From Siphonodentalium dalli (taxonomy: Eukaryota; Mollusca; Scaphopoda; Gadilida; Siphonodentaliidae): DNA of 64,000 nt. The notes under the pieces were generated by a model. That model had not been told where the DNA came from and did not search any database. It worked only from the letters and a program-made list of their open reading frames with translations. The stretch is from contig CP136066.1 in assembly GCA_032622095.1 (NCBI GenBank), positions 91,223,319 through 91,287,318 on the forward strand, read 5' to 3'. Below, one piece after another: positions 11,495-62,577 of the stretch. Position 1 is the first letter of the stretch. The number at the start of each line of letters is the position of its first letter. The translations under genes were made by a program, and so were the position numbers.

Positions 11495-12050
11495 TCACCT
11501 CGTCTTCTTTGAAAACAGTTGAAGCTTATTATATCTCTCTCTATGTAGATTATATGTCAGTCTCCGTGAGTGGAAGTGTAAATCAGTAAGACCAGCTTTT
11601 GAAATATCGTTGGTAGCTGCACTGGGATCAATAATCAGCTGCAATAGACTGTGTTTAGTTATGGGGTTTCCAAGCTGGTGTTCTTTTAGTACTGCATCCT
11701 CAAGTTTCGAAAGGGCAGCACTGCGTGCTCCATATAATGCATTACAGTTAATAAGGAAGTGTTCCAACGTCTCAGGTGCTTTTCGACAGAGCTGACAAGT
11801 AGGGTCTACTTCATTCTTGTTGTACTTGGCATGGTTTGACTGGAGCGTGTAGGTACCGGTAACAATTTTTGCTTTGACAGGTATTCGTGTATAATCACGG
11901 CTACTGAGCTGACAAGTCTGAATAACTGGATGACAGGTTCGAGGGGGATAGACCTTAGAGAGATGGTTCAGTGAGGGATACAGGATAGCTTCATTGAGAA
12001 TAAGTTGTCGCCAATGCTTGTTCACCGCTTTTTGATTATCATCTTCGTAT
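11495..12050 (-). pseudogene. LINE C-terminal region with zinc knuckle
   Basis: The last part of the same LINE protein is in a different frame from the thumb region because of an indel near 12040-12055. It contains CQLCRKAPETLEHFLINC, the C-x2-C-x8-H-x4-C type knuckle seen at the C-terminus of several LINE clades. The TGA at 11495 is followed by a short 3' region. Confidence 0.85.
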
Positions 12051-13733
12051 GTAATTTTGGTGAAGGATTATGGAGCATATATAGAGGTTCTGGTAGGTTG
12101 TACATAAGAAGCAATTCTTTGATGGCGATAAACCAGCTATGACTGGTTGATGATTTACTGTCAAGTTGTCTTTGTGCCAACTGTCGTTCGCAGGATTTCT
12201 CAGGAAGTCGGCATATGTTGGTGAATAATCCAATTGCTTTCTTGTGAATTATAGCTTCGATAGGTAGTAGTCCTGATAAAATGTAGATAGCTGGTTTTGC
12301 AGCATTGTTCGGTAGAGATAGCAGTTGTCGTGCGAGTCGTCCCTGATGTAACTCCAGTTTATCCAGCTGTGTACCCGATGGTAATATAACCTCAAGTCCA
12401 TAAGAATAGAGTGGGGATATGTATGTGTTGAACAGAGCAAAGGCTGTTATTGGATCGACACCATTTTCACCATGGAGACCTGCTCCAATCAGTGCATATG
12501 CAGCTTTTGTAGCCCTCTTTATATTCTCATCCACTGCTGTCTGGGATTGATTATTCCATGTTCTTGTGATACCCATATGCGAAGTGCTCTCAACTGTTTA
12601 CATGTCAGCACCGTTAATGTTAAGTGGTGGATAAATTATTTCAGGCTGATTGGAGGTCTTTACTTGAAGGATGACTCTCTTTTTCTTTTGAAGTAGGTAG
12701 CCTTCCTTACGGCTATACTCGTAGCAGATGTCGACCAGATGTTGAAGTTTCAGTGGACAGTTACTGAGAAGAGTTACATCATCTGCACATGTTGGGGAGG
12801 TAACATTGGCTGGACCAATATATGTTGTGCAATCCGAAAGAGATAGACGGTACAGAAGGTCATTTATATATACTTTGTAGAGGTCAGCACTCAACACTTC
12901 ACCTTGACGTACCCCTTGGTGATTGATGAAGCGTTGTGAAAGTTGGTTCTGCCATTTAACAGCTGTAGTTGCATTATCATACAGTTTCTTAATCATCATC
13001 CATTCATGGTCTTCGACACCAATATAAAAGAGTTTCTTGAGAAGATTATCATGTACAACTACATCAAATGCAGATTTGGCATCCAGAAATGCTATATATG
13101 ATGGGCGATTGAGGTCTCTGTTATTGCGACACCATTCCTCCACAATCAGTGAACAGTTCATAGGCGATGAATGTTTTGTAAATCCGCGTTGGAGTGGATT
13201 CTGTGACTCTATAATCTTCTTGTTGATTCGAATTTTTAGTACAGCTTCGATGGTACGGCATAAGACAGGAGTTATTGTTATACCACGGTAGTTGCATGAG
13301 TGATGTTTATCTCCCTTGTTCTTGAAGATTGGATTTAGAGTACCTAGCGTTAGACATTCTGGCAGATCATCAGCTAGAACTAGGTGGTTGATGAGATTCC
13401 GTATAATGGTCAGCAGGTCACTGCCAGGAAAGTAAAGGTGTTCAGCTGAAATTCCATAGGGATCTAATGCTTTTCCCCTGTTTAGCATTTTTATTGCTTG
13501 GTGAACGTCATCGCATGTCACTGTATTGAAGAGTAATGTTGGAGCAATTTCGCAGAGCTGCTGAATACTGTATTTCTCTTTCTGTATGGATTTAATATAA
13601 TCAGCATCAATCTCGTTACTTGGTGATTCAGTTGCTAGTTTCTTAAAGTGGTTAAACCATCCCTCAAGTATGTTTTCACTGCCATAAATTTCTTCGCCAA
13701 CATGTAAATCTTCAATGAGGCAGTTTGATCGTT
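12022..13733 (-). pseudogene. LINE reverse transcriptase domain with in-frame stop
   Basis: The frame is open from the A10 tract. It begins with a linker containing GWFNHFKKLAT, a phrase usual before LINE reverse transcriptases. It then shows GKALDPYGISAEHL, NYRGITITPVLCRTIE, QRGFTKHSS, AFLDAKSAFD (catalytic Asp), HQGVRQGEVLSADLY and CADDVTLLS (the YADD-type box with Cys in place of Tyr/Phe). A TAA at 12598-12600 interrupts the thumb region, after which the same frame continues (MGITRTWNNQ, then PLYSYGLEVILPS) to 12022. The gene cannot make a full protein without readthrough. Confidence 0.9.
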
Positions 13734-15080
13734 TTTTTTTTGCTTGCGGATCAATCTATGGAATAGCTGGTTGTCAGTTGATCGTGCATTGATAATTTCT
13801 TCTTTCACCAGTGCTTTTGTTGTAGCTTTTTGCACTCTTATCTCCCGACGTAGGGCTTGAGTGGTTAGCTGCTTTTCAATCAACATATGGTTAGTGGAGT
13901 CAATTGGACGTCCTTGAGTTTTCCATTTAAAAAACGCTTGCTTTTTCTTTTGCACAGCATCAGTTATAGCTGGAGATAAGATTTTGAAGGATTTCCGCCG
14001 AGCCGAAACTTTTCTTCTTGGAGTAAGTTGATCAGATGCAGTAGACAGAGCATGGTGGATAAGTTCTATATATGTACCAGGATCAGTAGATAAAGTATTG
14101 CGATTGAGTTTGGAGAGTTCATCACTGACGGCTTGTTGGTACTTATCCTTATCAATTTTTCTCCATGGAATTCTTCTGGTAATTATAGGAGGATTTTCTT
14201 TCTTCTCGGTAATAGCAAGATTAACCTTCACTAACATCAGCACAGGATGATGGTCAGATACATTACCATTAAGATCTTGTAGACTGTCCACAGATATTAT
14301 ATCGTCTTCTTTTGATTTGTGTATCAGTATAAAGTCAATTAAAGAGGATCCATAACCATTGACGTTATTGAAAGTTTTTTCAGTTTGTGGTGACGTCATT
14401 CCATATTTCTCTATAAGCGCTGCTATACCATTAGAGCGTAATGAGTTATCATTTACATGAATATTTTCGTTGAAGTCGCCTCCAAGCATAATCTGGTGTG
14501 TGTTTGCAAAATTTCCCAAAATCACATCTAGCTGGGTGATGCATTCTAGATATTCAGTCACTGATTCCTTGTTGCCTTTGCATGGTAGGAAAACTGCTAT
14601 AATTAGAAGAGGGTCCATCGTTGAGAGCTCGATACATAATATCCTATTATTTCCTTCAGGCATTTCCTTTACTAGGGGATCAAGTTTCTCTTTCCACATG
14701 ATGGCTACACCACCCCGTCCTCTGGGCATTTGGATAGGTGGAATGGGATCACCTGTGTCAACAGCTTTACCAGTTGCATTAAATACATCAGAGATAGTTT
14801 GAAGTTCATGTAGTTGACAGTCATATAACCAGTGTTCTTGAATGAGAAGAATATCGGCCATACTTGCAAGATCAGGTAAAATAACGTCGCATGTATGAAT
14901 ATTCTTACAATTATACGTAATAACGGACAGTACTTCTTTATTTTCTTCTACCTTCTTGTTGCTATCAAAATTAATCAAATCCATTAGTTCCGCCCCTTCC
15001 AAATCCTCCCGGGTCATTCCCAAATCTCCAATAAATAAAATAAAAATCTGACATAAAAACCACAAAGATGTTACGAACAT
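13733..15080 (-). pseudogene. LINE endonuclease domain (EEP family)
   Basis: This is the N-terminal part of LINE ORF2. It nicks target DNA to prime reverse transcription. From the N-terminus I see SVITYNCKNI (about residue 52), LLIQEHWL (about 78), RGRGGVAIMW (about 120), GGDFNENI (about 200), IDFILIH (about 248) and SDHHPVL (about 275). These cover the expected catalytic Asn, Glu, Asp-x-Asn and terminal Asp-His of the exo/endonuclease/phosphatase fold. The first Met is at 15080, but a second Met about 21 codons later (MTREDLEGAE) may be the true start. The frame leaves the reverse transcriptase frame at the A10 tract and then ends spuriously at 13635. Confidence 0.9.
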
Positions 15081-15081
15081 G

Positions 15082-15565
15082 ACTTTTGGAACTTATTCCC
15101 TATTCCTTATTCCTTATTTTTTTAAATATCGCTTTCGACCGATTTGACGGCATGGTAGGTGCATGGGTGGCCGGCCCCAAATACCACCTAGAAACACCCC
15201 ACCATCACCCCGGGGGTGCCACACCGAGGGGGTGAAAATGGGGTATGGACCATTTTCGAGAACGGTAAGAATTTCGGCCGATTTGACGGCATGGGTGGGT
15301 GGCCGGCCCCAAATACCCCCTAGAAACACCCCGACCCCCCACCCATCACCCCGGGTGGTACCACCCCGAGGGGGTGAAAATGGGTAGGCCTATGGAGCAA
15401 TTTCGAGAACGGTAAGGATTTCGGCCGATTTGACGGCATGGGTGGGTGGCCGGCCCCAAATACCCCCTAGAAACACCTCGACCCCCACCCATCACCCGAG
15501 GGGGTGAAATGGGATATGGAGCAATTTCGAGAACGGTAAGGATTTCGGCCAATTTGACGGCATGG
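15082..15565 (-). repeat. 133-bp tandem repeat, about 3 units, minus orientation
   Basis: Units share GGTAAGGATTTCGGCC, GATTTGACGGCATG, GGCCGGCCCCAAATACC and CACCCCGAGGGGG phrases at about 130-bp intervals. The head, with repeated ATTCCTTATTCCTTATT, is inverted relative to 26935-26980. The same family lies in plus orientation at 25020-25500 and 26755-26940. Open frames here are Gly/Pro-rich artefacts. Confidence 0.85.
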
Positions 15566-25019: not shown

Positions 25020-25505
25020 GGGTGAGGGGTGATGTGCTTCTAGTTGGTATTTGGGGCGAGCCATCCACACATGCCGTCAAATTGGCCCAAATCCTTACCG
25101 TTCTCGAAAATGCTCCATACCTCATTTTTACCCCCTCGGGTGACATCCCCCCCGGGGTGATGGGTGGGGGTCGGGGTGTTTCTATGTGGTATTTGGGGCG
25201 GGCCACCACCAATGCCGTCAAATCGGTCGAAATCCTTAACGTTCTCGAAAATATATGGTCCATACCCCATTTTCACTCCTTCGGGGTGGCACCCCCGGGG
25301 GTGATGGTGGGGTCGGGGTATTTCTAGATGGTATTTTGGGCAGGCTACCCACACATGCCGTCAAATCTGTCGAAATCCTTACCGTTCTCGAAATGGTCCA
25401 TACCCCATTTTCACCCCCTCGGGTTGGCACCCCCCGGGGTGATGGGTGGGCGTCGGGTGTTTCTAGATGGTATTTGGGACCGGCCACCCACCCGGTGTCA
25501 GACCG
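25020..25505 (+). repeat. 133-bp tandem repeat, about 3.5 units, plus orientation
   Basis: Successive units contain TTTCTAGATGGTATTTGGG, CATGCCGTCAAATCGG, CCTTACCGTTCTCGAAA and a CCCCTCGGG block at about 130-bp spacing. Same family as 15082-15565 (opposite strand) and 26755-26940 (same strand). Confidence 0.85.
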
Positions 25506-25834
25506 GTTTTCCGAAGACCTATTACTACGAAGGCCCACAACTCCGAAGACCCGATTCTCCGACGGCCCACAACTCCGAAGACCCGATTCTCCGACGGCCC
25601 ATAACTCCGAAGATCCGATTCTCCGAAAGCCCATAACTCCGAAGGGCCGATTCTCCGAAGACCTATAACTCCGAAGAACTATAACTCCGAAGGGCCGATT
25701 CTCCGAAGACCTATAACTCCGAAGGCCCGATTCTCCGACGGCCCATAACTCCGAAGGTCCGATTCTCCGAAGGTCCGATTCTCCGAAGATTTTGTTTTAT
25801 CGGGGTATTATCGTTTACTAAATAGTGTACAGTC

Positions 25835-26463: not shown

Positions 26464-26754
26464 GACTGTACACTATTTAATAAGCGATAAAACATGATCT
26501 TCGGAGAATCGGATCTTCGGAGAATCGGACCTTCGGAGAATCGGCTCTTCGGAGTTATAGACCTTCGGAGTTATGGGCGTTCGGAGTTATAGGCCTTCGG
26601 AGTTATGGGCTTTCGGAGTTATGGGTCTTCGGAGTTATGGGATTTCGGAGAATCGGGACTTCGGAGCTATGGGCTTTCGGAGAATCGGGGCGTCGGAGAA
26701 TCTGACCTTCGGAGAATCGGACCTTCGGAGTTATGGGTCTTCGGAAAAACGCTA

Positions 26755-26980: not shown

Positions 26981-27884
26981 TAATGTTCGTGTGTACCGTA
27001 CCATAATTCAGCATTTGTATTGGTGAGAGCTACCCCTTCATCGTTGTTAATGCTTTTCAAGTTTATCATTACAGGTTTCAGTTCTCCATAGCGAAGAAGA
27101 TAAAAAAAAGAGGGCTACACAATTTCTCACAAGAAAACCATAGTCAGAAATGGTAACGCCACCAAGATCATATTATTAGCCATAAATATAAATTATAATA
27201 TAATTATAATATAAAATATTATTCATTAGTTAGCGCTAATATAGGTGCTAACTAATGAATAATATTATTTGATTGACTTATTATATAACATCTTCATCTT
27301 ATTCACAACTTTAAGGAGTCCTTCTGGCACACGAGAATATTTATCGCCGTTTGATTTGCACCAAGTGAACTCGGCGCATATATAATTGATAGAACAGACC
27401 TCTATTATGCTGATCGTGTCGTTATTTGTTTAAAATACGTATCAATTGACATATACGCACCCCTTCCCTCATTAAAATCTACATATATCGCCCATTTTAG
27501 GGGACCTCCGCGAATTCGGGGACTTCCGCAAAGTGGTCTCCGCAAATAGGGAACTACTGCAAATCGTCGCACCCAATGCAATTTGTAAACAAATACGGTT
27601 GACATGCGTTTTAACGAGGTGAGGTTTAATTTTTTAAAAAGAAGCAATGCTACATATAAACTATTTGTCATGGACTCAGCCAGTGTGCCATATATCTGTG
27701 TAAACTAAGGTCGCTTTGCGTGGTAAAAGTGAAAAGTGAAAGTGGAAATTCGGAAAATCCTATTGAAAATGAAGTACAATTTTGGGAATTCCGCGGCAGA
27801 ATAAGAGAATCTATACTATTGAAAGTGAATGTACGATTCCTGGAATTCTATCAGATATCGCGACTCTGTTCGTTTTCGTGATCA
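26981..27884. other. unassigned stretch with a perfect hairpin
   Basis: A perfect 20-bp inverted repeat, AATATTATTCATTAGTTAGC at 27215-27234 and its complement at 27247-27266, surrounds a 12-base loop. It may be a small MITE. A short block of CGGGGACTTCCGC-like phrases lies near 27500-27560. No gene was recognised. Confidence 0.55.
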
Positions 27885-28453
27885 TCTATCTCATATATAT
27901 TTTGAAGACCTCTGTCTGTATGTTTGCATGTTTGTCGTATGTTTGTCATTTATACAAATCTACGATTCACGACCGATCGGGACGAAACTTGGTACGTGTG
28001 TGTAGTTTGACCAGGCGGTGGACCTTGTCGTATTGGCGAGCCCGTGCGGCGCCCGCTTCGCGCATGCGCAGACGAGATCTCGGAAACGGGTGGAGCTATC
28101 GACTTGAAATTTGCTATGTGAATGTATCATGCCCCGGATACGAATTGTATCGGGTCGCCGAGCCCGTGCGACGCCAGCTTCGCTCATGCGCAGACCAGAT
28201 CTCGGAAACGGGTGGAGCTATCGACTTGAAATTTGGTATGTGAATGTATCTTGCCCCGGATACGAATTTTATCGGGTCGCCGAGCCCGTGCGACGCCAGC
28301 TTCGCGCATGCGCAGACGAGATCTCGAAAACGGGTGGAGCTATCGATTTGAAATTTGGTTTTTGAATAGCCGGGACAACGTCAGGCTGGGTAGAGCTATC
28401 GACTTGAAATTTGGTTTTTGAATAGCCCGGACAACGTCGGGCTCATCGGCTAG
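27885..28453 (+). mobile_element. Helitron-like element H1
   Basis: Starts TCTATCTCATATATATTTTG. It contains two to three 122-bp core units (ACGGGTGGAGCTATCGACTT phrase). The 3' hairpin is AGCCCG (28424-28429) with CGGGCT (28438-28443), then CTAG at 28450-28453. Confidence 0.8.
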
Positions 28454-29581
28454 TCTATACTATATATTTTGAGACTTCGTATATATGTGTGTGTGTGTGT
28501 GTGTGTACTTCATAGAATCCAAAACGCGTGTACATATTGAGCTCAAACCTCCTATGTAAGTGTCAAATCCCACCGACACGACCGTGGTCGCGGTTTAGAG
28601 AAGCTCAGAGCACCCGTTCTCCAATCTCAAATCACCGCAAACGCACGGCGTGGGTTAATCAAGTGATTATTTAATGAGCGTTTGTTTTTGACGCATCTCT
28701 ATAAAGAGCGTCTGTTTGCCATTCAACGTTATTTGCATCTGCAGAGAGATATACGGAACATACATTAAATTTAAAAAACATTTGTTTCTGATCAACCCTG
28801 CGAGCACGGATGGCGCGCTTTGTTTTTACAGTATATAGTTATATACCGAAATCATCCCAGATAATCACGAATATAGCATCAGATTTCTCCCCAGATATAC
28901 CGTTATAAAGCTACTGGAATCTGCCAATCTACGGGAAATTCCAGGGAATGCCGATTGAGCTCAAACTTGCTACCCACGGGAAGTGTCATATATATGAGTG
29001 TGTCCTTTATAGACTCGAACCGATTGAGCTCAAACTTGCTAAATAAGAAAATAGCCCCCAAGCCGTAAATATCAACAACAACGATATTACTAAATACACG
29101 TTTTCGGCAATGTGAGAGTTTTCGGGGAGCCGTGATGCCAACAACAACCACCCGAAGCCCTGAATGCCAACAACAGATTCAATGCAATGTTATCTATTAT
29201 GCAGAGAGATTTCACGACATTACGACGGGTACGGCAGACTCAAAATATTATGCAGACAGATTTCCCGACGGGAAGCGTTTGTTTTAAATTCAATGCAATG
29301 TTATCGTAGAGAGATTTCACGAAACAAAGAATGCGTTGTCTGTCGTTCCTAGGAAGGGGGGATTTCTACGGGTAAATTTTTCCGCCAGAAACAAAAAAAT
29401 TAATTAAAACAATTTACAATTTAATTAAAACAATTTAAAATTAAAAAAAATTAACAATAAAAAAACAATTCAGAAACAAAATATATTAAATTTAAAAAAC
29501 ATTAAATTCATATTCAAAAATGTCATGTTTCTGAAACAAAGCCATGGGACGAATGCCGCCAGTGGCGGGCTAACCTGCTAG
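28454..29581 (+). mobile_element. Helitron-like element H2
   Basis: Starts TCTATACTATATATTTTG, then a TG microsatellite (about 28487-28505). It shares the GGTTAATCAAGTGATTATTT and GAGCGTTTGTTTTTGACGC blocks with H4 and H5. The 3' hairpin is CCGCC-AGT-GGCGG (29556-29568) with CTAG at 29578-29581. Confidence 0.8.
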
Positions 29582-30633
29582 TCTCTTCTATATATTTTGA
29601 GAACTCCTTGTATTCGAGAGATAGCCCACACCCTCCGGACCTCAATGATATGATCGTGAATGAGTATTGATATACCCCACTAAACTTTGACAAACACCAG
29701 TAATGGTGTGTAGATCATTTACATATCTCTCCTATATATTTTGATACAATCTATCTAATTTACATATCTCTCTTATATATTTATGTTTGTGTGTGTGTTG
29801 TACTTCATACAAATCTACGATTCTCGACCGATCGGGACGAAACTTGGTACGTGTGTGTAGTTTGACCAGGCGGTGGTCGTTGTCGTATTGGCGAGCCGTG
29901 CGACGCCCGTGCAGCGCATGCGCAGACGAGATATCGGAAACGGGTGGAGCTATCGACTTGAAATTTGCTATGTGAATGTATCTTGCGCCGGGTACAAATT
30001 TTATCGGGCCGCGGAGCCCGTGCGATGCCCGTGCAGCGCATGCGCAGACGAGATCTCGGAAACGGGTGGAGCTATCGACTTGAAATTTGCTATGTGAATG
30101 TATCTTGCGCCGGGTACAAATTTTATCGGGTCGCCGAGCCCGTGCGACGCCCGTGCAGCGCATGCGCAGACGAGATATCGGAAACGGGTGGAGCTATCGA
30201 CTTGAAATTTGCTATGTGAATGTATCTTGCGCCGGGTACAAATTTTATCGGGTCGCGGAGCCCGTGCGATGCCCGTGCAGCGCATGCGCAGACGAGATCT
30301 CGGAAACGGGTGGAGCTATCGACTTGAAATTTGCTATGTGAATGTATCTTGCGCCGGGTACAAATTTTATCGGGTCGCCGAGCCCGTGCGACGCCCGTGC
30401 AGCGCATGCGCAGACGAGATCTCGGAAACGGGTGGAGCTATCGACTTGAAATTTGGCATGTGAATGTATCTTGCGCCGGGTACAAATTTTCATGCGCAGA
30501 CCAGATCTCGGAAACTGGTGGAGCTACCGGGTACAAATTTTTCTTATTGAAACGCGTGGAGCTAAAAATTTAAAAAACATATATATAAATGTCATGTTTC
30601 GGACAAGCCGCCGGTGGCGGGCTAACCTGCTAG
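29582..30633 (+). mobile_element. Helitron-like element H3, with a nested second start
   Basis: Starts TCTTCTATATATTTTG. A second start-like sequence lies near 29767, so the element may be two, one inserted near the 5' end of the other. The body is five 122-bp core units (about 29880-30480), each with CGCATGCGCAGACGAGAT. The 3' hairpin is at 30608-30620 and CTAG at 30630-30633. Open frames on both strands across the array are repeat translations. Confidence 0.8.
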
Positions 30634-31683
30634 TCTATACTATATATTTTGAGACTTCGTATATATGTACTTCATAGAATCGAAAACGGTTCGCTCGATT
30701 GAGTTCAAACTTCCCATCTAAGGGTAAAAACCCAAGAACACCGTAGTTGTCGGGTTTTGGAGAAGCTCTGAGCACCCTTTATCCACTCCCAAATCACCGC
30801 AAAGGCACGGCGTGGGTTAATCAAGTGATTATTTAATGAGCGTTTGTTTTTGACGCATCTCTATAAAGAGCGTCTGTTTGCCATTCAACGTTATTTGCAT
30901 CTGCAGAGAGATATACGGAACATACATTACATTTAAAAAACATTTGTTTCTGACCAATACTGCGAGCACGGATGGCGCGCTTTGTTTTTACAGTATATAG
31001 TTATATACCGAAATCATCCCAGATAATCACGAATATAGCATCACATTTCTCCCCAGATATACCGTTATAAAGCTACTGGAATCTGCCCACGGCAATGTCG
31101 GCTTATATGACATATTTACTACACATGACAGCCGATTGACAATTGGTCTCTATATATGTACCAAAATTACGCCGCGTTGGTGACTGGGAAATTCCAGGGA
31201 ATGCCGATTGAGCTCAAACTTGCTACCTACGGGAAGTGTAATATATATGAGTGTGTCCTTTATAGACTCGAACCGATTGAGCTCAAACTTGCTAAATATT
31301 GACTGGGAAATTCCAGGGAATGCCGATTGAGCTCAAACTTGCTACCTACGGGAAGTGTCATATATATGTGTGTGTCCTTTATAGACTCGAACCGATTGAG
31401 CTCAAACTTGCTAAATACGGGAAGTGTCATGGACGGGTTCATTGAAAAACAAAAAAAAATCGGGTAAAATTGAAAAACAAAATTAAAAAGGCACAATTAA
31501 CTCCTTGAAAAACCAAACAAAATCGGGTAAAATTTAAAAACAAAAAAATTAAAAAGGCACAATTAACTCATTGAAAAACAAACAAATTAACTCATGCAGC
31601 ACAAGTGTCTCGGAACCTGTTGCAATTGCTTTTTCGAACAAAGCCATGGGACGAATGCCGCCAGTGGCGGGCTAACCTGCTAG
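30634..31683 (+). mobile_element. Helitron-like element H4
   Basis: Nearly the same body as H2 (ATTGAGTTCAAACTTCCCAT, CACGGCGTGGGTTAATCAAG). It contains duplicated CCGATTGAGCTCAAACTTGC blocks near 31205-31415. The 3' hairpin is at 31658-31670 and CTAG at 31680-31683. Confidence 0.8.
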
Positions 31684-32793
31684 TACTATATATTTTGATA
31701 CTTCCGTATATATGTGTGTGTGTGTGTGTGTACTTTATAGAATCGAAAACGGCTGGCTCGATTGAGTTCAAACTTCCCATCTAAGGGTAAAAATCCACGA
31801 ACACCGTAGTTGTCGCGTTTTGGAGAAGCTCTGAGCACCCTTTATCCACTCCCAAATCACCGCAAAGGCACGGCGGGGGTTAATCAAGTGATAATTTAAT
31901 GAGCGTTTGTTTTTGACGCATCGCTATAAATAGCGTCTGTTTACCATTCAACGTTATTAGCATCTGCAGAGAGATATACGGGAACATTGAGTGGTTTCCT
32001 ATGCGGGGAGATTTATTGGATGCCATAGTACTCTTACAACATCATTGTTATAGTATGTATGACACTTAGGTCAGGGCTTAGGGGGCGGTAGTTATAGGCA
32101 TAATGCTTCTCAGAAATCCCGGTTACAAACCAACCGGTTACAAACAAACGCAACGTTATCGCTCGAAATTTATTATGCAGAGAGATATACGGGAACAAGT
32201 GCTTTCCTATTTTTAGAACGCAACACATGGGGTTCACGACGGGATTAATTGACTGTCCGCTCTTTGTGAGGATGGGGTTCACGACGGGATTAACTTTGCG
32301 GGGACTATTGACAATCTCGTAAGGGTGGACAACCTCTGTCAGGGGCTGCTCAATGGCCACGGGCAGGTTAAAAAAAATCATACCTCTTCTGGGTCTGGGC
32401 GTGTATAGACATGAGCGTGTTGTGTTCCTAAGAACGCGGAGCGTGTTGTGTTCCTAAGAACGCGGATCGGGTAAGTTTTTCCGCCCTAGGTGAGCTCAAA
32501 CTTTGTATATAAGTGTAAAAACACACGGGGATCCTCGACGTCGCATTGTGTGAAACATTCTTATGTCTGTCGTTCCTAGGAATTTTTCATCGGGTCAGTC
32601 TTAACCTTCAAACGGGTACCCACAAATTATATATTGGACCCCGACACGACCTTGACCTTGAAAATGATCAATTCAAGGTCAAATCGGGTAAAATATTGAA
32701 AAACCCAATATTAACTCATTGAAAAACACAAACAAAACATAAAACATTGCCATGTTTCTGACCAAGCACGCCAGTGGCGGGCTAACCTGCTAG
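31684..32793 (+). mobile_element. Helitron-like element H5
   Basis: Begins TACTATATATTTTG, so the first bases of the usual TCTAC start are lost. It shares the H2/H4 body, then a TCAAGGTCA-containing 3' part like H6. The 3' hairpin ends near 32781 and CTAG is at 32790-32793. Confidence 0.75.
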
Positions 32794-32816
32794 TCTATTA
32801 TATATTTTGGAAGATT

Positions 32817-32847
<31 letters not shown>

Positions 32848-33529
32848 AATCGATGAACTCGAAAACGGCCGACCCGATTTCGATGAAACTTGTGGGGGTA
32901 TGTGGGGGTATCTTCGGCCGGGGAGTGACATATGCCTATTAATTTGCCCGTGCGACGTGACCTTGACCTTGAAATCGGGTAATTTCAAGGTCAAACGCCC
33001 GAATATCACGGGAGTTCGATGAAACTTGGTATGTGGGGATGCCATCGGCCGGGGAGTGGCATAAACCTATCAATTTGCCCGTGCGACGTGATCTTGACTT
33101 TGAAATCGGGTCATTTCAAGGTCAAACGCCCGAATATCACGGGATTTCGATGAAACTTGGTATGTGGGGGTACTTTCGTATGGGGAGTCTCATAAGCCTA
33201 TTCATTTGCCCGTGCGACGTGACCTTGAAATCGGGTCAATTCAAGGTCAAATCGGCAATTTTGATGGAATTTCGACAAAATGTTATACATAGGGTTACTT
33301 TTGTCCATGAGTGTTTTGGGCGGGTCCAATCGTGACACCGACCTGACCTTGACCTTCAAAATGATCTATTCAAGGTCAAATCGGGTAAAACCGGATGGAT
33401 TTCGACGGGCACGTTTGTCGGGTACTTTTGTCCGGGCAGTGTTTTGGACTGGTCAAACCGTGACCCCACTTGACCTTCAAAATGGACAATTCAAGGTCAA
33501 AGCCCGGACGAAGTCGGGTCACCTTCTAG
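32794..33529 (+). mobile_element. Helitron-like element H6
   Basis: Starts TCTATTATATATTTTGG, with a long TG run (about 32818-32847). Three to four units of about 130 bp carry TTTCGATGAAACTTGGTATG and paired TTGACCTTGAAAT / ATTTCAAGGTCAA blocks. The terminal hairpin CCCG..CGGG (33503-33518) is followed by CTAG 33526-33529. Confidence 0.8.
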
Positions 33530-33758
33530 TAGGTTATATAAGGTCTATATGACCACGAAAACGAGTCGATACATCCATCGATACAAACCCATTGTGTATA
33601 CGATACAATTTTGACTTGATGAACAGAAAATAAAAGATCGCGGTTACTCCAACAGAACTTGCAGGCATCCGCACTCCAATTAAAATTACCCATAATTCAT
33701 TCACTACACCAGGGGCTCCCAATGGGTTATACATTATTTTCAGGCTATCAGATTATTT

Positions 33759-57052: not shown

Positions 57053-58475
57053 TTGGCAGCCATCTTGGATTTTACTCTTTGCATGACTAAATCCTTTGGC
57101 GCAGGCTACAGGTCGTAGTTTTGATCAGAACTTCATGAAATTTGTCATGGATGTTAACAATGACATGTAGATGGGAACGAGTGATTTTGGGGTTGTTCGG
57201 CCAAAAAACATGGCCACCAGCAGCCATCTTGGATTTTACTCTTTGCATGACTAAATCCTTTGGCGCGGGCTACAGGTCGTACCTATGGTCTGATCTTTAT
57301 GAATTTTGTCATGAATGTTGACATTGACATGTAGATGGGAACGAGTGATTTTGGTGTCGTTCCGCCAAAAAACATGGCCGCCAGCAGCCATCTTGGATTT
57401 TACTCTTTGCATGACTAAATCCTTTGGCACGGGTTACAGGTCGTACCTTTGGTCTGACCTTTATGAAATTTGTCATGAATATTGATATTGACATGTATAT
57501 GGGAACGAGTCATTTTGGGGGTCATACGGCCAAAAAACATGGCCGCTGGCAGCCATCTTGGATTTCAAAATTCAATCCATTGGCACGGGCTACAGGTCGT
57601 ACTGTTTGTCTGATCATCATGATATTTATCATGGATGTTAATATTAACATGTAGATGGGAATGAGTCATTTTGGGGTCGTTTGGCTTAAAAAACATGTCC
57701 GCCAGCAGCATATTGGATTTTACTCTTTGCATGAATAATCCTTTGGTGCGGGCTACAGGTCGTAGCTTTGGTCGGAACTTCATGAAATTTGTCATGTATG
57801 TTAACAATGACATGTAGATGGGGAAACGAGTCATTTTGGGGTCGTTCAGCCGAAAAACATGGCCGCCAGCCAAGTCTTGAAATAGGGTGTCTGTCATTTG
57901 CAGAATGAGGTCCCCAGAGGGTGAATTTAGTGATGCTACCATGCATAGCGGGCTAGCATCACCAAATTCACCATCTGGGGACCTCATTCTGCTTACACCT
58001 CAGCAGAATGAGGTTCCCAGAGGGTGAATTTGGTGATGCTAGCCCGCTATGCGGGTAGCATCACTAAATTCACCCTCTGGGGACCTCATTCTGCAAATGA
58101 CAGACACCCTATTTCAAGGCTTGCCGCCAGCAGCCATCTTGGATTTTACTCTTTGCATGACTAAATCCATTGGCATAGGCTACAGGTCATACCTTTGATC
58201 AGATCATTATGAGATTTGTAAAGGCTGTAGATGGGAACAAGTCATTTTGGGGTAATTCGGAAAAAAACATGGCTGCCGGTGGCCATTTTAGAATTTACTC
58301 TTTGCATAAATAAATCATTTGGCACACCATAATCACCACATCCCTGATCCGATCATTATGAATGTTGATATTGACATGTACATCTAGTCTTACTTAGATA
58401 TTTCAATTAGCACTTTTCCTATTCCTCCATTTATACTGTCGACCATTAAATTATTCCCCTACCTAAGTTGAGCTA
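57053..58475 (+). mobile_element. core-repeat element (about 165-bp units), 5' truncated, 3' end intact
   Basis: Six or more units with GCCATCTTGGATTTTACTC, CTACAGGTCGTA, TTTGTCATGAATGTTG and ACATGTAGATGGGAACGAG. The 3' end TAAGTTGAGCTA lies at 58464-58475, the same terminus as the full element at 60143-62577. It is interrupted by the MITE at 57871-58123. Confidence 0.8.
57871..58123. mobile_element. hAT-like MITE, family E copy 4, with 8-bp target duplication
   Basis: Ends CAAGTCTTGAAATAGGGTGT and ACACCCTATTTCAAGGCTTG. The interior is a palindrome of palindromes: two GAGGTCCCCAGAGGGTGAAT hairpins back to back. CCGCCAGC flanks it on both sides (57863-57870 and 58124-58131), while uninterrupted monomers elsewhere carry that sequence once. 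Confidence 0.9.
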
Positions 58476-60142: not shown

Positions 60143-62577
60143 TAGCTCAACTTACTTTTGTAAGTTTGAGCTATTGCCATGGCTTGGCGTCCGTCGTCCG
60201 TGTGTGCGTGTGTCCGTCAACAATTTCCTTTGGCGCGGGCTACAGGTCGTACCTTTGGTCTGATCTTTATGAAATTTTGCATGAATGTTGACATTGATAT
60301 GTAGATGGGAACGAGTCATTTTGGGGTCATTCGGCCAAAAAACATGGCCGCTGGTGGCCATCTTGGATTTCAAAATTCAATCCATTGGCGCGGGCTACAG
60401 GTCGTACTGTTCGTTTGATCATCATGAAATTTGTCATGGATGTTAATATTGACATGTAGATGGGAACGAGTCATTTTGGGGTCGTTTGGCCAAAAAACAT
60501 GGCCGTCAGCAGCCATCTTGGATTTTACTCTTTGCATGACTAAATCATTTGGCGCAGGCTACAGGTCGGTAGTTTTGATCGGAACTTCATGAAATTTGTC
60601 ATGGATGTTAACAATGACATGTAGATGGTAACGATTGATTTTGGGGTTGTTCGGCCAAAAAACATGGCCGCCGGCAGCCATCTTGGATTTTACTCTTTGC
60701 ATGAATAAATCCTTTGGCGCGGGCTACAGGTTGTACCTTTGGTCTGATCTTTATGAAATTTGTCATGAATGTTGACATTGACATGTAGATGGGAACGAGT
60801 CATTTTGGGGTCATTCGGCCAAAAAACATGGCCGCTGGTGGCCATTTTGGATTTCAAAATTCAATCCATTGGCGCGGGCTACAGGTCGTGCTCTTCGTCT
60901 GATCATCATGAAATTTGTCATGGATGTTAATATTGACATGTAGATGGGAACGAGTGATTTTGGGGTCATTCAGCCAAAAAACATGGCCGCCAGCAGCCAT
61001 CTTGGATTTTACTCTTTACATGACTAAATTCTTTGGCGCAGGCTACATGTTGTAGCTTTGGTCAGAACTTCATGAAATTTGTCATGAATGTTAACAATGA
61101 CATTTAGATGGGAACGAGTGATTTTGGGGTCGTTCGGCCAAAAAACATGGCCGCCAGCAGCCATCTTGGATTTTACTCTTTGCATGACTAAATCCTTTGG
61201 CGCGGGTTACAGGTCGTACCTTTGGTCTGACCTTTATGAAATTTGTCATGAATATTGATATTGACATGTATATGGGAACGAGTCATTTTGGGGTCATACG
61301 GCCAAAAAACATGGCCGCTGGCAGCCATCTTGGATTTTACTCTTTGCATGACTAAATCCTTTGGCACAGGCTACAGGTCGTAGTTTTGATCAGAACTTCA
61401 TGAAATTTGTCATGGATGTTAACAATGACGTGTAGATGGGAACGAGTGATTTTGGGGTTGTTCGGCCAAAAAACATGGCCGCCAGCAGCCATCGTGTATT
61501 TTACTCTTTGCATGACTAAATCCTTTGGCGCGGGCTACAGGTACGTCGTACCTATGGTCTGATCTTTATGAATTTTGTCATGAATGTTGACATTGACATG
61601 TAGATGGAACGAGTCATTTTGGGGTCATTCGGCCAAAAAACATGGCCGCTGGTGGCCATTTTGGATTTCAAAATTCAATCCATTGGCTCGGGCTACAGGT
61701 CGTGCTGTTCGTCATGAATGTTAACAATGACATGCAGATGGGAACGAGTGATTTTGGGGTTGTTCGGCCAAAAAACATGGCCGCCAGCAGCCATCATGTA
61801 TTTTACTCTTTGCATGACTAAATCCTTTGGCGCGGGCTACAGGTACGTCGTACCTATGGTCTGATCTTTATGAATTTTGTCATGGATGTTAATATTGACA
61901 TGTAGATGGGAACGAGTGATTTTGGGGTCGTTCGGCCAAAAAACATGGCCGCCAGCAGCTATCTTTGATTTTACTCTTTACATGACTAAATCCTTTGGCG
62001 CGGGCTGCAGGTCGTAGCTTTAGTTGGATCTTCACGAAATTTGTCATGGATGTTAACAATGACATGTAGATGGGAACAAGTCCTTTTGAGGTTATTCAGC
62101 CAAAAAACATGGCCGCTGGAGGCCATCTTGGATTTAAAAATTAAATCCATTGGTGCGGGCTACAGGTCGTACTATTCGACTGATAATCATGAAATTTGTC
62201 ATGGATGTTAATATTGAAATGTAGATGGGAACGAGTCATTTTGTGGTCGTTCGGCCAAAAAACATGGCCGCCAGCAGCCATCTTGGATTTGACTCTTTAC
62301 ATGACTAAATCCTTTGGCTCGGGCTGCAGTTCGTAGCTTTAGTCGGATCTTCATGAAATTTGTCATGGATATTAACAATGACATGTAGATGGGAACGAGT
62401 CATTTTGAGGTCATTCAGCCAAAAAACATGGCCACCAGCAGCCATCTTGGATTTTACTCTTTGCATGACTAAATCCTTTGGCACAGCTACATGTAGGTTA
62501 GACATTTCAATTAGCACCTTTCCTATTCATCCATTTACTGTCAACCATTAAATTATTCCCTTACCTAAGTTGAGCTA
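60143..62577 (+). mobile_element. complete hairpin-start core-repeat element, about 2.43 kb
   Basis: The 5' TAGCTCAACTTA (60143-60154) and 3' TAAGTTGAGCTA (62566-62577) are perfect 12-bp terminal inverted repeats. The 5' end also folds with GTAAGTTTGAGCTA (60160-60173). After ATTGCCATGGCTTGGCG and CCGTCGTCCGTG come about 14 units of about 163 bp (GGCGCGGGCTACAGGTCGTA). The last 90 bp matches 58386-58475. No coding frame; open frames are repeat translations. Confidence 0.85.

Follow-up and report, generated by a model that had tools for sequence, protein, structure and literature searches.

Displaced TCTA prefixes point to 5'-ward stacking of non-autonomous Helitrons in Siphonodentalium dalli

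The stretch of DNA analysed here (referred to as the window) comprises 64,000 nucleotides of contig C6 of the scaphopod Siphonodentalium dalli (C6:91223319-91287318), whose genome was analysed as 2.23 Gb in nine contigs. At positions 27885-33529 the window carries six Helitron-like elements, H1 to H6, arranged head-to-tail in one orientation (Table 1). A 5' TC terminus is present in H1, H2, H3, H4 and H6, while H5 has lost its TCTA, and CTAG, which agrees with the CTRR 3' terminus, ends all six. A hairpin lies about 10 nt before the 3' end: its stem folds in H1, H3 and H6, while in H2, H4 and H5 a CGCC..GGCG inverted repeat was recognized by eye and the lowest-energy fold of the last 50 nt pairs differently. 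Insertion took place between A and T without target duplication, both in the window and at the host flanks of other loci (see below). A Helentron or HINE of the DINE-1 type was also considered, and was rejected since the insertion site is A^T rather than TT. With lengths of 565-1128 bp the elements offer too little room for a Rep/helicase gene, and they were thus taken as non-autonomous. The array is real, and consists of six non-autonomous canonical Helitrons.

Much of what a first-pass annotation of the window had claimed was borne out, namely the Helitron identity, the stacking of different subfamilies, the outer flanking bases A (27884) and T (33530), the two types of 3' hairpin (CCCG..CGGG in H1 and H6, (C)CGCC..GGCG(G) in H2-H5) and four exact CTAG|TC junctions (28453/28454, 29581/29582, 30633/30634 and 32793/32794). 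Two of its boundaries had to be corrected. The fifth junction (31683/31684, H4|H5) had been described as lacking only the TC, but what is missing there is TCTA. Similarly, the first element does not start at 27885, as had been assumed, but at 27889, and the TCTA before it is surplus. This start was assigned because in at least nine places an H1-type 3' end abuts position 1 of the H1 query with no spare bases, and because 13 of the 18 H1-type 5' ends in the loci fetched from the genome (numbered L001 onwards) begin with TCTCA without a preceding TCTA; in the other five, the window included, TCTA precedes TCTCA.

Table 1. Coordinates of the Helitron array and its flanks within the window
Feature	Position	Strand	Description
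5' host flank	27870..27884	+	final base A (target A^T); one inverted-repeat arm TCGTTTTCGTG, other arm at 33554-33564
Surplus TCTA	27885..27888	+	outside H1; interpreted as the four initial bases of H5, displaced
H1	27889..28453	+	565 bp; CCCG..CGGG hairpin, CTAG end; 5' end type common to a RepHel-bearing element
H2	28454..29581	+	1128 bp; TC...CTAG
H3	29582..30633	+	1052 bp; TC...CTAG; H1-like 122-bp repeats, H2-type 3' end
5'-end-like motifs within H3	29726..29779	+	TCTCTCCTATATATTTTG at 29726, similar motif near 29767
H4	30634..31683	+	1050 bp; TC...CTAG; immediately 5' of H5
H5	31684..32793	+	1110 bp; resident without TCTA, TACTATATATTTTG start directly after CTAG of H4
H6	32794..33529	+	736 bp; TCTATTATATATTTTGG...CTAG; 3'-most; read as early arrival
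3' host flank	33530..33541	+	TAGGTTATATAA; T + TATA-like stretch, i.e. target-site type

Judged by the copies of H1, H2, H3 and H5 found elsewhere in the genome, H1-H6 are genuine repeats. The copy lists hold the best-scoring candidates, so the counts given here refer to the matches listed. Queried from 27889, H1 gave at least 40 near-full-length other matches, 35 of them spanning positions 1-565, with identities up to 96%. H2 gave at least 42 others at 98-99% which reach position 1127 or 1128; 36 of these start at position 1 or 2 and six at position 5, and at least one of the latter (C1:94048021) is a TCTA-lacking junction. Among the matches listed for H3, one copy on C3 (L002) is 100% identical (a rounded value; 0.996 by pairwise similarity) and the others 95-99%, whereas H5 is matched across positions 1-1110 with a best other copy of 94%. 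Three solo copies of H3 in ordinary DNA (L012, L014 and L018) start at A|TC and end at CTAG|T exactly, so the predicted boundaries passed this check; whole-element matches also exist for H1, H2 and H5, and the outer-flank boundaries were checked for H3 only. An age gradient along the array was considered and is not used as support, since the best copies of H1, H2, H3 and H5 (96%, 99%, 100% and 94%) do not follow a monotonic order. In its make-up H3 is a chimera of H1-like 122-bp repeats and an H2-type 3' end, and its internal 5'-end-like motifs are perhaps fossils of earlier 5' stacking.

The window thus contains one element without TCTA (H5) and one surplus TCTA, which stands at the 5' edge of the preceding block H1-H4. 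This is what would be expected if the block had entered H5 at TCTA^TACTATATATTTTG: insertion between A and T within the H5 terminus gives the pattern of the window without any duplication or loss of host DNA. The same footprint is found genome-wide. The TCTA-lacking junction CTAGTACTATATATTTTGA has 2,160 exact matches, and the extra-TCTA pattern TCTATCTN{1,5}TATATATTTTGA marks 2,215 5' ends, so the two counts are near-equal; the second pattern omits some prefixes (TCTTCTA; GG-type ends) and may include some unrelated sequence, and tandem amplification inflates both numbers. The clean junction 22-mer CTAGTCTATACTATATATTTTG occurs 2,513 times, far above chance, and of all TCTATACTATATATTTTG ends (4,878 genome-wide, intact ends of this type) 52% lie directly after CTAG. 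Reversed controls of all four patterns gave no match. Moreover, the truncation is of a single type. The fetched loci contain 96 H2-type junction leads, of which 42 were TAC and 41 the full TCTATAC, the remainder being extra prefixes or variants, including two TAT; leads of CTATAC, TATAC, ATAC or AC were absent from these 96. Since many of the loci were chosen at TCTA-lacking or clean junctions, the proportions are biased, and it is the absence of other lengths that matters.

If the missing TCTA is displaced by an incoming element, it should be found on one side of the resident. We used the first 100 places of each pattern list, all of them on C1. The nearest same-strand extra-TCTA end within 6 kb of a TCTA-lacking junction lay upstream in 56 cases and downstream in nine, with none found in 35, and within 1.6 kb the counts were 31 upstream vs four downstream. 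No opposite-strand extra-TCTA end lay within 6 kb of any of the 100 junctions. The control with 100 clean junctions gave six upstream and six downstream within 1.6 kb, and 20 vs 10 within 6 kb; the latter asymmetry is to be expected in part, since clean junctions lie inside blocks bounded by extra-TCTA ends and TCTA-lacking junctions. When same-strand places less than 20 kb apart were merged, the 63 resulting clusters comprised 38 with the extra TCTA upstream, one downstream, one tie and 23 without such an end (p = 1.5e-10).

The order of events was also assessed by a bracket test, in which the loci were read 5' to 3' and each extra TCTA was paired with one later TCTA-lacking resident. Over all fetched loci 25 matches were obtained in the forward vs eight in the reverse direction, and the maximum of 10,000 shuffles was 24. 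After two doubtful TAA junctions (one of them host sequence) were dropped, the result was 24 vs eight, with a shuffle mean of 14.6 and a maximum of 23 in 10,000. Twelve TCTA-lacking places were additionally fetched with 1.45 kb of upstream sequence, in list order and loosely skipping clusters that were already partly covered. The 5' boundary of the neighbouring element carried an extra TCTA in four of them (three against host DNA), was a clean host edge in one, ambiguous in two, and was not reached or stacked again in five; by coordinates, an extra-TCTA end lay within 6 kb upstream in seven of the twelve and downstream in none. In the arrays L061 and L062, which were followed from host edge to host edge, extra and lacking TCTA balance (1/1 and 2/2), and each of them also contains junctions of other kinds.

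Properties of the target were derived from host flanks, whose rows were selected by eye after removal of displaced TCTA units. The 3' set consists of 14 flanks (19 rows minus the mutated or non-host L037, L055, L060, L079 and L076 at 306, minus the L012/L013 duplicate, plus L065), and the 5' set of 20 (28 rows minus L051 at 1297, L006 at 3731, L057, L058, L020, L016 at 411, L076 and one of L012/L013). The first base of the 3' flank was T in 14/14 and the final base of the 5' flank A in 19/20. The AT content of the 3' flanks was 0.86-1.0 at +1 to +11 and fell to 0.29 at +13, and TATA[AT] was present within 13 nt in 13 of the 14 3' flanks vs four of the 20 5' flanks (Fisher 6e-5). The resident terminus that follows TCTA, TACTATATATTTTG, matches the 3' host flanks in make-up (T + TATA-like). 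Passages of the Helraiser study (PMC4778049) describe a preference for AT-rich sequence, strongest on the side that flanks the 3' end, and note that the left end has an AT-rich stretch close to where it is cleaved; as far as these passages go, the TCTA footprint agrees with the 3'-flank preference of Helraiser.

In the array, non-autonomous Helitrons of the canonical, A^T-inserting kind have very probably been stacked towards the 5' side. This explanation builds on where, and on which side, the displaced TCTA lies, on the near-equal counts of missing and extra TCTA and on the A^T target with its TATA-like 3' side. Integration would favour A^T with about 11 nt of AT-rich, TATA-like sequence on the 3' side, and residents would become targets of newcomers because their own 5' terminus (host A^TCTA^TACTATATATTTTG) would offer two sites of this type. 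A newcomer at TCTA^TAC would deprive the resident of its TCTA, which would end up before the newcomer, and a clean CTAG|TC junction would result wherever the site used is host A^TC or displaced-TCTA^TC. Since insertion occurs at A^T and not at G^T, the clean junctions were probably made from the 5' side as well. In the window H6 and H5 would have come first, followed by H1-H4 into the 5' end of H5, and it is for this reason that the TCTA of H5 would now precede H1. H1-H4 probably arrived successively rather than as a block; one-by-one and block entry are both possible. We tentatively propose, as a possibility somewhat short of an even chance, that in its 5' terminus the Helitron retains a copy of the preferred target of the family (A^T + TATA-like), i.e. 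a self-renewing landing pad that makes a 5'-ward ratchet and spares host genes. Every insertion would then re-create the target at the newcomer's own 5' end.

Several observations weigh against 5'-ward stacking, or reduce the force of the tests. Clean junctions alone cannot distinguish 5' from 3' insertion. With the exact pattern, the 35 of 100 junctions and 23 of 63 clusters mentioned above have no extra-TCTA end within 6 kb, and in nine of the 100 it is nearest on the downstream side. The idea was formed from L001-L030 and the window, which the bracket test on all loci includes, and a weaker result came from the 36 loci without an array in common with these (7 vs 0, attained by 102 of 10,000 shuffles); likewise, some of the C1 places of the direction tests had already been seen (L031-L060 and later loci), although most were new. 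Individual arrays deviate too: L077 lacks TCTA although its 5' edge against the host is clean, L065 shows an extra TCTA at its host edge and no TCTA-lacking member, and the L016/L019 array holds two unmatched TCTA-lacking members. In single cases the extra TCTA could be host sequence or a product of slippage. Finally, stacking towards the 5' side predicts that H1 is the youngest element, and the best-copy identities give no clean age gradient.

The first-pass annotation had offered two other origins, namely rolling-circle read-through and insertion at residents' 3' ends. In the former case, replication that runs on beyond the 3' terminator, or that takes place on a circular template, would produce a head-to-tail concatemer integrating as one block. 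A plain concatemer was rejected for the window, where successive units are not near-identical (the similarity of the five adjacent pairs, by longest single alignment, is at most 0.22), and it leaves unexplained why TCTA is missing downstream yet present before the block. In the fetched loci, 67 of 77 adjacent pairs are at most 0.9 similar; the other ten, however, reach 0.97-1.0, while 2.3% of random pairs exceed 0.9, L029 and L030 resemble two copies of a single array, and runs with exact 1125- and 1140-bp spacing fit concatemers. Thus, the read-through idea fails for the window array, for which we consider it unlikely, but gains support elsewhere, and tandem amplification is a second process in this genome. 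Such a process is also needed for homogeneous satellite-like head-to-tail runs of one element type, which were observed at C1:5785394-5790665 (e.g. 1,125-bp spacing at C1:5786894-5789144) and C3:210688708-210696967. If newcomers entered residents at their 3' end (CTAG^T), an identical clean CTAG|TC junction would result, and after one insertion at TCTA^TAC later newcomers could in principle use CTAG^TAC. Such entry requires G^T, though, while the host flanks show A and T, and it cannot produce TCTA-lacking junctions with TCTA upstream, which is the side on which the displaced TCTA lies (56 vs nine junctions, 38 vs one clusters). We therefore regard this origin as very improbable.

A variant of 5' insertion is that H1-H4 entered the 5' end of H5 as one composite, reaching from the 5' end of H1 to the 3' end of H4. 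The displaced TCTA indeed stands at the outer edge of the entire block, and in several fetched arrays a block of more than one element is bracketed by an extra TCTA and a TCTA-lacking resident. However, the near-identical H3 on C3 has other neighbours, thus H3 has moved without the H1-H4 block, and the best-copy identities of H1, H2 and H3 among the matches listed differ, which argues against a composite; a single entry of this kind seems rather unlikely. Unequal crossing-over, assembly error or slippage of a TCTA microsatellite hardly comes into question as the source of the array. Whole-unit tandem duplication is seen in some arrays, e.g. L055/L056, but thousands of exact junctions on both genome strands (the listed places all being on C1) speak against error or slippage, and slippage would not predict the 5' direction found in the clusters.

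Tandem Helitron arrays are known from bats, Bombyx, maize, rice and Daphnia (PMC5876387, PMC4067079, PMC5148889, PMC2884549) and have been treated as characteristic of the group (PMC2884549). Where the text consulted names a cause, it is read-through, circles or rolling-circle replication (PMC5876387, PMC4067079, PMC12628747). In S. dalli, by contrast, the stacks are mixed, and the displaced-prefix footprint orders the events and indicates 5' insertion. A similar case is Fusarium FoHeli, in which one FoHeli4 lies 2 bp upstream of the partial 5' end of another and multiple 5' termini occur, together with a Metarhizium triple discussed as two 5'-end insertions or rolling-circle replication; these alternatives, and with them the origin of tandem arrays, are left open there (PMC5148889). 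Those are undecided single cases with Helitron2-like ends, whereas the Helitrons here are canonical and insert at A^T, their junctions number in the thousands and the direction could be tested. Truncated centromeric Helitrons of plants (Xiong et al. 2016, as described in PMC12628747) likewise form tandem arrays; many of these have only one 3' end for several 5' ends, for which a truncated-circle model is given, while every member here has its own 3' hairpin and CTAG. Tandem dimers that arise through target preference and not through replication were reported for Drosophila transposable elements (McGurk and Barbash, as described in PMC12628747), but in S. dalli it is the Helitron 5' terminus itself that is the target.

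No earlier description of a displaced-prefix footprint was found in the open-licence literature, as far as its available parts go, so the displaced-TCTA footprint looks new although tandem Helitrons are not. Four bases give the order and direction of events in counts of thousands, and the question of array origin becomes testable by counting. A general rule is suggested, by which a terminus resembling the target leads to self-stacking arrays, as well as a way in which dispersed Helitrons could turn into satellite-like arrays.

We also looked for an autonomous relative. The Helitron_like_N domain (PF14214) has at least 151 matches in the genome and none in 14 control genomes, and over a dozen of the listed frames exceed 1,600 aa. 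The match at C1:13743912 lies in a 1,614-aa open frame, downstream of and on the same strand as an H1-type 5' end which shares 96.8% identity with H1 across 219 bp. Between this 5' end and an ATG 2.2 kb further on (MPPKKRKLIGR, read by eye), which probably opens the 1,614-aa frame, no other 3' end motif turned up; the sequence examined lies on either side of C1:13741301-13745899 and stops short of the 3' end of the element. This element has TCTATCTTCTA in front as well, and the next TCTA-lacking junction downstream of it is preceded by an H3-type element. RepHel elements with an H1-type 5' end may provide the enzyme for the array members.

Further observations concern the elements and their surroundings. 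Inside H2-type elements, several elements start at one and the same position, CTGCCAA^TCTA (L003, L004, L051/L052, L067, L009), which marks either another hot spot of insertion or the spread of a single composite. At L065 (2653) and L062 (1937) the junctions read CTGCTA|TCTATAC and CTGCTAA|TCTATAC, without the G of CTAG. Four copies of H1 spaced 6.5-8.5 kb apart, plus one directly adjoining copy, occur at C9:97165158-97187661, perhaps as part of a larger repeated unit. In the window, open frames of at least 110 aa overlap the H1-H6 elements, and an imperfect inverted repeat TCGTTTTCGTG / CACGAAAACGA (27870-27880 / 33554-33564) surrounds the array insertion; without the array the site would form a palindrome around an AT-rich loop, possibly a host element or a hairpin target. 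What appears to be one short CTTCGGAG / CTCCGAAG repeat forms two arrays of opposite orientation about 0.7 kb apart (25503-25788 and 26496-26745), and a related 164-bp tandem repeat forms two long arrays (57056-57870 and 60226-62482). Finally, the minus strand at 11495-15092 carries the remnant of a non-LTR retrotransposon, with matches to reverse transcriptase (PF00078) and endonuclease (PF03372).

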